Shown piece after piece: positions 17,367 to 59,339 of a stretch of 64,000 nt of DNA. Origin of the DNA: Proteinivorax tanatarense (GTDB lineage: Bacteria > Bacillota > Proteinivoracia > Proteinivoracales > Proteinivoracaceae); the NCBI RefSeq assembly GCF_040267685.1, contig NZ_CP158367.1:1860001-1924000 (forward strand), in the 5' to 3' direction. The position numbers and the translations under genes are program-made. Below the pieces are notes generated by a model. The model was not told the DNA's origin. It searched no databases and saw nothing but the letters and a program-made list of their open reading frames with translations. How positions within the stretch are numbered: position 1 is the stretch's first letter; the number at the start of each line of letters is the position of its first letter.

Positions 17367-17495
17367 TTTTTGAGAGTAGGATAATTTTTTTTAATTCACA
17401 CCACTGTAAGTACCGTTGATTATAAGCGGCTTAATAGTTAATTGCATCGTTATACTTTTGATTGAAAAAAACATTATTTAAATTCATGAAAGTAA

Positions 17496-17527
17496 GGCTA
17501 TGGGGCAAGGTCCGATAGCCCTTTTTT
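17496..17527 (+). terminator. Possible terminator after the orphan kinase
   Basis: A GGCTAT/ATAGCC stem (17496-17501 with 17515-17520) followed by a T-run on the plus strand. It lies about 130 bp after the kinase and just before the repeat array. The stem is short. Confidence 0.55.
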
Positions 17528-17561
17528 GTGGTTCCCATTTCGCGTAGGGCACCTAATTACC

Positions 17562-19731
17562 TTAGAGACCAGACCCAGCATTAAATCAAGTTTCAAATGT
17601 CCAGCTCTTAGTCCCAGCAGAATGAGCATAATATCGACGTTTTCGTGGCTAATAAATGTTTTGTTCTTCCACTCAAGATATCTACATTTACTAATTCAAA
17701 AGCTTTAATTGGCCACGAAAACTTATAAATTAGCTACATGCTGGGACGGAATTCTTTTTTCCAAATAAGCTACATGCTTGGTCAATAAAAAATATGGATA
17801 ATTATTATGTTGATTATATCCTCTAAAATCTCTGTAAGTAGTATGATAATTATAGAAATCTCACTAACCATAGAGGTTCACAGACCTAGCATCAAAACAA
17901 GTTTCAAATATCCAGCTCTTAGTCCCAGCAGAATAAGCAAAATATCGACGTTTTCGTGGCTAATAAATGTTTTGTTCTTCCACTCAAGATATCTACATTT
18001 ACTAATTCAAAAGCTTTAATTGGCCACGAAAACTTATAAATTAGCTACATGCTGGGACGGAATTCTTTTTTCCAAATAAGCTACATGCTTGGTCAGTGAT
18101 AGAACAAATAATTATTTAGATAGTGGTTTTACTTAATTAATTCTACAATTGAAATGATAGATTTTAACCTTTGCCTTGAGAACCAATAGACCCGGCATTA
18201 AATCAAGTTTCAAATCCAGCTCTCAGTCCCAGCAGAATGAGCATAGTATCGACGTTTTCGTGGCTAATATTTTTTTTGACCTTCCACTCAAGATATATAC
18301 ATCTACTAATTCAAAAGCTTTAATTGGCCACGAAAACGTATAAATTAGCTACATGCTGGGACGAAATCCTTTTTTCAAACTAGCTACATGCTTGGTCAGT
18401 AATAGAACAGATAATTATTTAGATAATGGGTTTACTTAATTAATTCTACAATTGGAATGATAGATTTTAACCTTTACCTTGAGAACCAATAGACCCAGCA
18501 TCAAATCAAGTTTCAAATCCAGCTCTTAGTCCCAGCAGAATGAGCATAATATCGACGTTTTCGTGGCTAATAAATGTTTTGTTCTTCCACTCAAGATATC
18601 TACATTTACTAATTCAAAAGCTTTAATTGGCCACGAAAACTTATAAATTAGCTACATGCTGGGACGGAATTCTTTTTTCCAAATAAGCTACATGCTTGGT
18701 CAGTGATAGAACAAATAATTATTTAGATAGTGGTTTTACTTAATTAATTCTACAATTGAAATGATAGATTTTAACCTTTGCCTTGAGAACCAATAGACCC
18801 GGCATTAAATCAAGTTTCAAATCCAGCTCTCAGTCCCAGCAGAATGAGCATAGTATCGACGTTTTCGTGGCTAATAAATGTTTTGACCTTCCACTCAAGA
18901 TATCTACATATACTAATTCAAAAACCTTAATTGGCCACGAAAACGTATAAATTAGCTACATGCTGGGACGAAATTCTTTTTTCAAACTAGCTACATGCTT
19001 AGTCAGTAATAGAACAGATAATTATTTAGATAATGGGTTTACTTAATTAATTCTACAATTGGAATGATAGATTTTAACCTTTACCTTTAGAACCAATAGA
19101 CCCAGCATCAAATCAAGTTTCAAATGTCTAGATCTCAGTCCCAGCAGAATGAGCATAATATCGACGTTTTCGTGGCTAATAAATGTTTTGGTCTTCTACT
19201 CAAAATATCTACATATACTAATTCAAAAACCTTAATTGGCCACGAAAACGTATAAATAAGCTACATGCTGGGACGAAATCCTTTTTTCAAACTAGCTACA
19301 TGCTTGGTCAGTAATAGAACAGATAATTATTTAGATAATGGGTTACTTAATTAACTCTACAATTGGAATGATAGATTTTAACCTTTACCTTGAGAACCAA
19401 TAGACCCAGCATCAAATCAAGTTTCAAATCCAGCTCTTAGTCCCAGCAGAATGAGCATAATATCGACGTTTTCGTGGCTAATAAATGTTTTGATCTTCTA
19501 CTCAAAATATCTACACTACTAATTCAAAAGCTTTAATTGGCCACGAAAACGTATAAATAAGCTACATGCTGGGACGAAATCCTTTTTTCCAAATAAGCTA
19601 CATGCTTGGTCAGTGATAGACCAAATAATTATTTAGATAATGGGTTTACTTAATTAATTCTACAATTGAAATAAGGAATGAGGTCTAAGGCCCAGCAGAA
19701 TGAGCATGGTATCGACGTTTTCGTGGCTAAT
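17562..19731. repeat. Tandem array of seven ~303-bp units with nested inverted repeats, plus a truncated eighth
   Basis: Each unit has a ~210-bp element and a 93-99 bp spacer. Elements run 17572-17783, 17883-18093, 18189-18397, 18492-18701, 18796-19003, 19099-19309 and 19403-19611. A partial eighth ends at 19731. Each element holds three nested inverted repeats, in unit 4: GACCCAGCAT/ATGCTTGGTC (18492-18501, 18692-18701), GTCCCAGCA/TGCTGGGAC (18529-18537, 18657-18665) and GTTTTCGTGGC/GCCACGAAAAC (18557-18567, 18630-18640). GACGTTTTCGTGGCTAAT is invariant in all eight. Spacers are also conserved except the first. Short open frames are not kept between units, so it is non-coding. It lies between convergent genes. 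Confidence 0.95.
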
Positions 19732-19791
19732 ATATATTTTAACCTGCAAACCTTACCGTCAAGTTCACACACATACTTAGCCTACAAAGTA

Positions 19792-19818
19792 AAAAACGAG
19801 CTTTTTAAGCTCGTTTTT
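19792..19818. terminator. Bidirectional terminator between the array and the alpha-CTD/sigma-4/HARE gene
   Basis: A 12-bp perfect stem (19792-19803 with 19807-19818), loop TTT, with A-run and T-run on the two sides. It serves the minus-strand gene, whose stop codon (19817-19819) touches it, and insulates the array. Confidence 0.8.
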
Positions 19819-21616
19819 ATATATTACGTGGTTTTCTTAAAGTATAGTATCCTGATTTATATCTTTTAAATCTATGATCTTGAGTAAGGGCATTATAAAT
19901 AGTTTGTTCTTTTGTAAAATGAGTCTGTCCAACAATTCTAGCAATTTTTTTATAATACATAGGCTCTTTTTGTTCCTTTAATATATCGTAAATATAATCT
20001 GCAATATGGGGGTACTCTTTAATGCCCCACTCAACAAGCCCATATATTCCTCGGCCAACACGGGCAAAAACATCTTTATGATTAGCTAAAATAGCTCTAG
20101 CATACTGCGTAGTTATACTCTGACCATCTCGCTGATTAGCCTTTTTTATAATTTCTTTATAATGGAGAGCTCTTCCTTCCCTGCGGAGAGTGTTTATAAT
20201 TATATTAACCTTGGTTCCTTCTCGTTCCTCAAAGTTAACATTTCCCTGGGAGTTAACTTCAAAACAATTGGCGGAAGCTAAACAAGCAGGTATAAAATTG
20301 TCTAGCATTCCTGAAACAGGTGTATACCTCCGATTAAGGGTCAAGTAAATTTCCCTGTCTTTAAGTATATTTAATAGCTCCTTTTCTTTATAGCTACCTT
20401 TTTGAAGTATATCTACCCCTGTTTTTATAAGCTCGCTATAATGTTCAAGGGGTAAAACACCCATTCCCCATACATCATAATTTATTTGTTGATACATTGG
20501 ATCTATATCTAATATCATGGAGGAAAAGTTAGCAATATTAATTGAGGGAACTTTTAAGTACGTGTTTAGTTCATTGGTAAAATGATCATGGGTTAATACT
20601 CCCCCTTGAACTAAAGTATAAACATGAAGCCAGGCAATAAAGTGAATGTTACTAAAGTAGATATTACTCATAATTTTAGCCTTCATTTTTTTTATAATCT
20701 GTTGTATCCTAGCTCTTGTCAGACCATACCTATCTCCAATTTCTTGCAAAGTACATATCTCACCATCTAAACCATAGAAAAGGCTAAGCATCTTAAATTC
20801 TCTTGTATCGATACCATCAAATACTCTTTCTATCCATAAATCTCCATCTTTTGTTAGTAAGTAATCTCTTAGTATATGCAAAAGAGATTCAATTTCTCGA
20901 TAATTAAGGTTTCTTTCGTTTGCTTTGTTAAGAAAAGGTAACTGTTTTAACAAAGCACAGTTTACACTAAAAAGCTTGTTAAACATTCTACCTTTATACT
21001 CTTTATATAGTTCAAATTCATCTAAACATACAAGCTGGGACAAATTTTTTATATCTTCCCTATAACAAACATCTAAAATCTCTTCTTCTAACGGAAGTAG
21101 ATGTATAGGGTATTGCCCGATTAACAAGGATAATAGTTTTTCTCTCTCGTCTCCTATTCCCGTTCTCTGCCCCCAAAATTTATTTTTCCATTTTTTAGCA
21201 TCTTTTTCTTCTTCTATAATAAGGTTAATTTTATACATTATTTCCTCAGCAGATTTATTTCCTAAGTTTTTTATAGACAAAAGCTCTCTAACAGAAATAT
21301 TAAGTAGTTCCTTTACATTGTAAACTCCGCATTTTTTAAGACAGTTTTTTGCTCTAGACGATAACCCTATGTCATTAATGCTTGTATCACTCTTTATAGT
21401 AGTTCCTTTTCCTAACTGCCTTTTTAAGGTTTCTTTAATTTCCTGTATAGTATATTCTCCACAATTAGTAGTTTTAACTAGTTCTTCTTCGTCCATTAAC
21501 GCCAACTGCCCTAATGTTTTAATTTCTTTGTCATTTAACACTCGCTGAGCTCTTGCAGATAGCCCCAACTTAGAAATAGGCTTAAACAATACATTAGACT
21601 CAAAAAACTCACTCAC
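19817..21616 (-). CDS. RNA polymerase-like fusion: two alpha-CTD-like modules, sigma region 4-like HTH and two HARE-HTH modules
   Basis: A 599-residue protein from the GTG at 21616 (AGGGGGGAG site). Two helix-hairpin-helix modules like the RNAP alpha C-terminal domain lie at about 12-68 (LGLSARAQRVLNDKEIKTLG) and 80-132 (IGLSSRAKNCL...SIKNLGNKSAEEI). A sigma-70 region 4-like HTH lies at about 272-315 (LQEIGDRYGLTRARIQQI). Two HARE-HTH domains, as in the RNAP delta subunit, follow at about 470-531 and 538-594 (each ending GRGIYGL or KSGYYTL). No core-binding sigma region 2 is visible. It probably binds DNA or RNAP; targets are unknown. It stands alone, converging on the repeat array. Confidence 0.8.
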   Translation of the reverse strand: MSEFFESNVLFKPISKLGLSARAQRVLNDKEIKTLGQLALMDEEELVKTTNCGEYTIQEIKETLKRQLGKGTTIKSDTSINDIGLSSRAKNCLKKCGVYNVKELLNISVRELLSIKNLGNKSAEEIMYKINLIIEEEKDAKKWKNKFWGQRTGIGDEREKLLSLLIGQYPIHLLPLEEEILDVCYREDIKNLSQLVCLDEFELYKEYKGRMFNKLFSVNCALLKQLPFLNKANERNLNYREIESLLHILRDYLLTKDGDLWIERVFDGIDTREFKMLSLFYGLDGEICTLQEIGDRYGLTRARIQQIIKKMKAKIMSNIYFSNIHFIAWLHVYTLVQGGVLTHDHFTNELNTYLKVPSINIANFSSMILDIDPMYQQINYDVWGMGVLPLEHYSELIKTGVDILQKGSYKEKELLNILKDREIYLTLNRRYTPVSGMLDNFIPACLASANCFEVNSQGNVNFEEREGTKVNIIINTLRREGRALHYKEIIKKANQRDGQSITTQYARAILANHKDVFARVGRGIYGLVEWGIKEYPHIADYIYDILKEQKEPMYYKKIARIVGQTHFTKEQTIYNALTQDHRFKRYKSGYYTLRKPRNI

Positions 21617-37082: not shown

Positions 37083-37445
37083 ATGCAAAAAAAACAACAA
37101 AACCAACAGCAGAATCAACAACAAAGTCAACAGCAGAACCAACAATCTAATTCAGGGCAACAGTTATCAGCACAAGAAATTTTAAATGACGCTTTGACAA
37201 ACGAAAAACACCTCACAGGCTTATACAACACCGCAGCCAACGAAGCATCTAATGCCTCACTAAGACAAGATATGCTGAACATCCTTATGGACGAGCATAA
37301 CATGGAAGCCTCCATCTTTAATACCATGCAGCAACGAGGTATGTATGATGTTAAGCAAGCAAGTTCTCAAGAAATAACTCAAGCACAGCAAAAATACGCC
37401 ACAAAGCAACAACAGCAACAAAAAACTCAAAACCAAATGTTTTAG
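37083..37445 (+). CDS. CotF-like spore coat protein with glutamine-rich ends
   Basis: 120 residues. A central CotF-type helical domain (about 28-95) contains SAQEILNDALTNEKHLTGLYNTAANEASNASLRQDMLNILMDEHNMEASIFNTMQQRGMY, a classic pattern of clostridial coat proteins. The N-terminal 27 and C-terminal 20 residues are mostly glutamine. It is in one unit with the preceding gene and followed by a terminator. Confidence 0.85.
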   Translation: MQKKQQNQQQNQQQSQQQNQQSNSGQQLSAQEILNDALTNEKHLTGLYNTAANEASNASLRQDMLNILMDEHNMEASIFNTMQQRGMYDVKQASSQEITQAQQKYATKQQQQQKTQNQMF

Positions 37446-59100: not shown

Positions 59101-59279
59101 CTTGGTCAAAGATAAAACTTTAATTATTTTGCTAATGGGTTACTTAACAATGCTCAATTTTAAAATGAGGACACTTTAACCTTTACCAAGAGGAGCAATA
59201 AACCCGGCATCATATCTAATTTCAAGTCCAACTCTTAATCCCAGCAGAATGAGCAAGTATCGACGTTTTCGTGGCTAAT
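59101..59279. repeat. Solo decayed copy of the 303-bp repeat
   Basis: Similarity starts at CTTGGTC (59101), runs through a diverged spacer with TTAACCTTTACC and a first-arm relic (AAACCCGGCAT), then through CCCAGCAGAATGAGCA to CGACGTTTTCGTGGCTAAT (59261-59279), which is exact. It ends at the same point as the eighth unit of the array. The right arms of the inverted repeats are missing. It lies between the MCP terminator and the ClC start. Confidence 0.88.
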
Positions 59280-59339
59280 TAATGCTTTGTCCCAAGTCAA
59301 CAGCGCCAAGTTAAGCACACGTTCAGGCGCACCTAAAAA

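Follow-up and report, generated by a model that had tools for sequence, protein, structure and literature searches.

Repetitive extragenic palindromic (REP) sequences and bacterial interspersed mosaic elements (BIMEs) with their RAYT (TnpA-REP) transposases (PMC2817692), together with REPINs (PMC3116915), are the described systems closest to the element analyzed here, an array of about 2.2 kb in Proteinivorax tanatarense. The array lies in a 64,000-nucleotide stretch of contig NZ_CP158367.1 (positions 1,860,001 to 1,924,000), referred to below as the window, and is composed of repeats that we call half-sites. Like REP/BIME sequences, half-sites are extragenic, high-copy repeats that alternate in orientation with regular spacers and occur as singles, doublets, and clusters; in both systems the presumed cognate gene is flanked by its own repeats and the repeat sequence appears to follow the protein type. 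However, the half-site is about 80 bp long and does not fold, whereas a REP sequence is a 20-40-bp palindrome able to form a hairpin, and the gene flanked by half-sites encodes a predicted PD-(D/E)XK nuclease, whereas RAYT is a Y1 transposase. With a half-site that is no short palindrome and a linked protein other than a Y1 transposase, the array falls outside the REP/BIME class, and RAYT-REP/BIME serves as the closest working analogy. The linked protein belongs to GxxExxY (TIGR04256/PF13366, PDDEXK_3), a named but functionally uncharacterized family that is here associated with repeats. We propose, with a probability of roughly 0.55, that the array is a BIME-like non-autonomous insertion of alternating half-sites, that these are most likely recognition sites of GxxExxY, and, as we infer, that the nuclease drove their spread.

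Analysis of the array with Tandem Repeats Finder delimited 6.9 copies of a 304-bp period at positions 17571-19672 (90% matches), followed by a partial half-site. The first-pass annotation of this DNA had described a tandem array of ~303-bp units, each with three nested inverted repeats and an exactly conserved sequence. The array and its inverted repeats are indeed present: GACCCAGCAT/ATGCTTGGTC (10 bp, with one constant mismatch), GTCCCAGCA/TGCTGGGAC (9 bp), and GTTTTCGTGGC/GCCACGAAAAC (11 bp), with arms separated by up to ~214 bp, and GACGTTTTCGTGGCTAAT is identical in all 8 copies. Taking 303 bp as the basic unit, however, was a misreading. When every copy in the genome is aligned, the half-site emerges as the natural unit. 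It has an L and an R variant, which lie on opposite strands; one L, one R, and a spacer make up the 303 bp, and the apparent nesting of the stems arises because L and R alternate in orientation. Each half-site contains two tandem boxes, G[A/T]CC[C/A]AGCA, about 36 bp apart, which continue with GAATGAGCA in L and with TGTAGCT in R, and ends in the tail ACGTTTTCGTGG(C/T)(C/T)AATTA. The even spacing noted at first does not extend to the family, where the L-R gap is ~44 bp in the window array versus 80-119 bp at other loci and where half-sites are found singly, in pairs, or in long alternating chains that have different spacers. That the locus is neither a clustered regularly interspaced short palindromic repeat (CRISPR) array nor an integron, and neither codes for protein nor carries a transposase, holds for the window; its spacers are near-identical between most units, unlike the unique spacers of CRISPR.

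Searching genome-wide with a sequence-only model of the half-site revealed 95 matches in the 3.09-Mb P. tanatarense genome and 144 in its sister species (G001), so that the earlier statement that the unit has no counterpart is overturned. A member of another genus of the same family (G002) has 29 matches at E<=0.1 (best 2e-8); these are diverged copies, which form this genome's own arrays and in which the motif GACCCAGCATGTAGC is retained exactly. There were none in two further genomes of the family (G003 and G004) and none, at E<=0.001, in the other searched genomes of the class. A pattern scan of 85,000 genomes returned 10 single matches, one each, in unrelated phyla, which were judged to be due to chance. 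An origin from a phage or plasmid was rejected, since searches of phage and plasmid collections and of IMG/VR gave no match.

Gene order in the sister species is collinear with that of this genome, in reversed orientation. The orthologs of the genes flanking the array are 78 bp apart in the sister species versus 2,450 bp here, and five further loci (L011, L012, L013, L014, and L017) are likewise empty in the sister, with 104-167 bp in place of 508-1,306 bp. Judged from this alignment of sites, the window array is an insertion missing from the sister species, strictly a presence/absence difference; the sister could have lost one such locus by deletion, but for six this is less likely. The suggestion of a selfish or dispersed repeat is supported by the ~95 copies here, by the orthologous sites that are empty, and by the sibling copies of related genomes.

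Other half-site subfamilies occur in both species within composite repeats of 700-820 bp (L043, L044, L021, L045, L047, and L050). These hold further hairpin-like repeats, such as TCCTTCGGCTGCGCTCAGGATGACG and CGATTCCCAATGGG-type blocks, with no match in Rfam. In the sister species, an insertion sequence of IS3 type (L041, 2580-4250) with two open reading frames, bounded by TGCTCCC...GGGGGCA, has inserted into a half-site array, and a close relative of it adjoins another array (L040).

The same repeat family as in the window flanks a GxxExxY gene at 1.684 Mb. This sibling array (L009, 1.6816-1.6858 Mb) contains a gene of 125 codons (protein of 122 residues, L009:5911-6276) with half-sites on both sides, a full member of GxxExxY by its scores for TIGR04256 (128.2 bits, cut-off 35) and PF13366 (127.1 bits, cut-off 22) and the only such gene in this genome. 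The only GxxExxY gene of the sister species also has half-site modules on both sides, in a different intergenic region nearby, and two of the six GxxExxY genes of G002 lie inside arrays of the half-site type. Family genomes with half-sites thus have 1, 1, and 6 GxxExxY copies, while G003 and G004 have neither the gene nor the repeats; across the phylum, the gene was found in only 14 of 299 genomes. Because arrays with 500-bp margins make up ~1% of this genome (an estimate from the genome-wide matches), such co-location is unlikely by chance. The linkage is phylogenetic as well as physical: the four array-linked proteins form one clade (support 100/98) in a tree built from 81 GxxExxY proteins, and the other four proteins of G002 fall apart from it.

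D67, E77, and K79 (numbering of L009:5911-6276), in the pattern D67...E77-x-K79, are invariant in 36 sequences, as are the E and Y of the motif that names the family. The predicted fold has a mean predicted local distance difference test (pLDDT) value of 95.5. Its best structural match is Cas4 SSO0001 (Z 10.3), other restriction-type PD-(D/E)XK nucleases match as well, and Holliday-junction resolvases do so at lower Z. The model thus supports a PD-(D/E)XK nuclease fold for GxxExxY, whose activity is predicted only. A sequence search of the PDB gave no match, and PADLOC returned only matches with E of 0.002 or weaker.

At 3.68 Mb in G002 (L097), another GxxExxY gene lies inside a different array, of ~280-bp inverted repeats (ACACGGC...GCCGTGT), which suggests independent GxxExxY-linked arrays within one genome.

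The association of GxxExxY with repeats is general. We sampled loci from Firmicutes, the phylum of a Planctomycetota genome, the phylum of Desulfatitalea, and plasmids, and in the 66 usable loci looked for a repeat common to the 400 bp upstream and the 400 bp downstream of the gene. A locus-specific repeat was shared by both flanks in 42 of them. Among controls, this held for 1 of 24 cold-shock genes, all from the Planctomycetota sample, and for 2 of 198 pairs made by swapping GC-matched flanks. The flank repeats are typically two to four units of ~9-11 bp starting with CCAC or similar, for example ACCACAGAGGCACAGAGACACAGAGG (L141), CCACGAATTACACGAATTACACGAA (L136), and GCCACAGATGAACACTGATT (L108), and by eye the end of the window family, GGCCACGAAAACG, is similar to them. 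Repeats of the CAC.GAG type accompany the ES.Y protein class at 16 loci, versus one with CAC.GAT, while the other two protein classes have CAC.GAT at 13 loci and CAC.GAG at none (Fisher p=1.2e-7, for motif classes defined after the data had been seen). The repeat type therefore appears to follow the GxxExxY protein clade, for classes drawn after inspection. The papers covered by a literature search gave no link of GxxExxY to repeats, only two incidental mentions.

By these comparisons of sequence, GxxExxY is probably the cognate protein of the half-sites. The nuclease would bind half-sites and nick or cut there; repair or recombination at the break would then copy half-site DNA into new intergenic places and, by the same process, expand it in tandem. 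Half-sites would in this way relate to GxxExxY as REP/BIME repeats do to the RAYT transposase. The idea of a protein-binding DNA array, which had also been raised at first, is compatible with such a scheme, with GxxExxY as the likely partner. For GxxExxY, widespread yet functionally uncharacterized, the rule of repeat linkage provides a testable role, one that would account for a class of bacterial intergenic repeats without a transposase. If the nuclease does move the repeats, the system would be a parallel to RAYT-REP built on a restriction-type nuclease. More tentatively, and with distinctly less confidence than in the origin proposed for the window array itself, GxxExxY proteins may be the enzymes of an unrecognized, phylum-crossing class of mobile DNA, in which a stand-alone PD-(D/E)XK nuclease recognizes and spreads clade-specific repeats and of which the window array would be a large non-autonomous offspring.

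Several points weigh against a nuclease-driven spread. About one-third of the GxxExxY genes have no repeat common to both flanks, four of the six genes in G002 lie outside the half-site repeat type, and the motif classes compared above are post hoc. The flanks are too diverged to fix the ends of the element or a target-site duplication. Recognition, cleavage, and mobilization of half-sites by GxxExxY are themselves inferred; the protein could be cargo instead of the mover, and a Y1/RAYT transposase elsewhere in the genome is a possible mover. Finally, the insertions at L011-L014 and L028 open with a shared segment resembling a group II intron, e.g. GTGCGCTCAGC...AAAGTCCGCTGTGGGCTTGG, and an intron may have carried the arrays.

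This last point leads to the main rival, in which the arrays are cargo of degenerate class C group II introns that lack an open reading frame and insert after intrinsic terminators; the arrays would have been spread by the intron machinery, and GxxExxY would be a passenger within a single array. Insertion at terminators is known for class C group II introns (PMC4424553). The insertions start right behind the terminator T-run of the upstream gene, and L half-sites are oriented opposite to the flanking genes 14:2 (p=0.004), as expected from a fixed orientation after terminators; it is because it explains both the position and this bias that intron carriage ranks first among the rivals. Several sibling insertions behind intrinsic terminators resemble these introns in their GTGCG-type 5' end and in sequence similar to domain I, the GUGYG-type end being clear in L012 and L013 and degenerate in the window. 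With the Rfam model group-II-D1D4-3, L028 scores 35.3, above the cut-off of 32, and L014 scores 28.5, below it. The intron-like segment of the window aligns locally with L011 with a score of 22, which none of 300 shuffles reaches, and more weakly with L012, L013, L014, and L028, while nhmmer is silent at E 0.05. However, the sibling loci differ from class C introns in having neither domain V nor an intron-encoded protein and in staying mostly below the Rfam cut-offs. Neither the window array nor most of the sibling loci match a group II domain V or an Rfam intron model, and the test for the ribozyme core gave none in the window and only the D1-D4 fragment in L028 and L014. Of ~22 loci, just five match the intron-like segment strongly, and ~720 kb of the sister genome, which is richer in half-sites, contain no strong match; carriage by introns also leaves the flank repeats of GxxExxY genes in other phyla unexplained. 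We consider this origin unlikely, if still the most serious competitor of spread by GxxExxY.

A poorer case can be made for a conventional miniature inverted-repeat transposable element (MITE), in which half-sites would form the inverted termini of a transposon of DDE or Y1 type, its transposase gene being elsewhere or lost. Like MITEs, the arrays are non-autonomous and intergenic with inverted ends; R-spacer-L blocks of ~225-265 bp with long inverted ends occur, and empty sites exist. Half-sites are, however, also found alone and in alternating chains, and no transposase lies between any of the half-sites read (the whole genome was not searched for transposases). The IS3-type element of the sister array was rejected as the mover, since its ends are unrelated to half-sites and it simply landed there. 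Altogether, a MITE seems improbable.

Binding of the array by a chromosome-organizing protein in the replication terminus half would be a host function. The distribution is suggestive, with 17 of 22 half-site loci falling between 0.90 and 1.95 Mb (p=4e-5), a region that surrounds the GC-skew switch (~1.51-1.53 Mb), and with the biased orientation noted above. Terminus regions collect insertions in general, though, the positions of the loci are not conserved between the sister species, and copy number and spacing vary widely, which leaves such a role very doubtful.

The structured RNA first suggested for each 303-bp unit is the least credible of all. A whole unit does fold better than its shuffles (z -4.2), but any two inverted copies give such a fold by construction; the half-site alone has no consensus structure and, whether as DNA or as RNA, shows no advantage in folding over its shuffles. 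Among 18 distinct L-R units from five loci, no both-side change was observed in the three stems, and stem breaks go uncompensated, some L halves having GTTTTAGTGGC with the partner unchanged; as most pairs never vary, this covariation result is a lack of support and not a disproof. A known Rfam family was also rejected, none matching the array at the gathering cut-off and only noise appearing at E<=5. On folding and covariation together, structured RNA is not supported and was rejected, and the window array is a DNA repeat insertion.

Table 1. Half-sites and associated features in the window, numbered from its first nucleotide.
Feature	Positions	Strand	Evidence
Whole insertion relative to sister species	17367..19796	n/a	synteny and empty-site comparison
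L half-site, unit 1	17569..17659	+	nhmmer
R half-site, unit 1	17703..17788	-	nhmmer
L half-site, unit 2	17877..17970	+	nhmmer
R half-site, unit 2	18014..18100	-	nhmmer
L half-site, unit 3	18186..18271	+	nhmmer
R half-site, unit 3	18318..18404	-	nhmmer
L half-site, unit 4	18489..18577	+	nhmmer
R half-site, unit 4	18621..18707	-	nhmmer
L half-site, unit 5	18793..18881	+	nhmmer
R half-site, unit 5	18924..19011	-	nhmmer
L half-site, unit 6	19096..19186	+	nhmmer
R half-site, unit 6	19229..19316	-	nhmmer
L half-site, unit 7	19400..19488	+	nhmmer
R half-site, unit 7	19531..19617	-	nhmmer
Partial L half-site, reduced to the second box and tail	19678..19735	+	nhmmer
Degenerate segment similar to the L011/L012 sequence that resembles a group II intron 5' end, immediately behind the terminator	19750..19796	-	local alignment
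Intrinsic terminator of minus-strand gene 19817-21616, retained in sister species; the insertion starts behind it	19791..19819	-	sequence
Second family member in the window, a lone L half-site between two minus-strand genes	59199..59284	+	nhmmer

The gene next to the array (19817-21616, minus strand) encodes a predicted protein with RNA polymerase alpha C-terminal domains, sigma-70 region 4, and HARE-HTH. Elsewhere in the window, a 12/24-bp tandem repeat (CAAAAACAACAA) is found at the start of a Coat_F spore-coat gene (37083-37445, plus strand).
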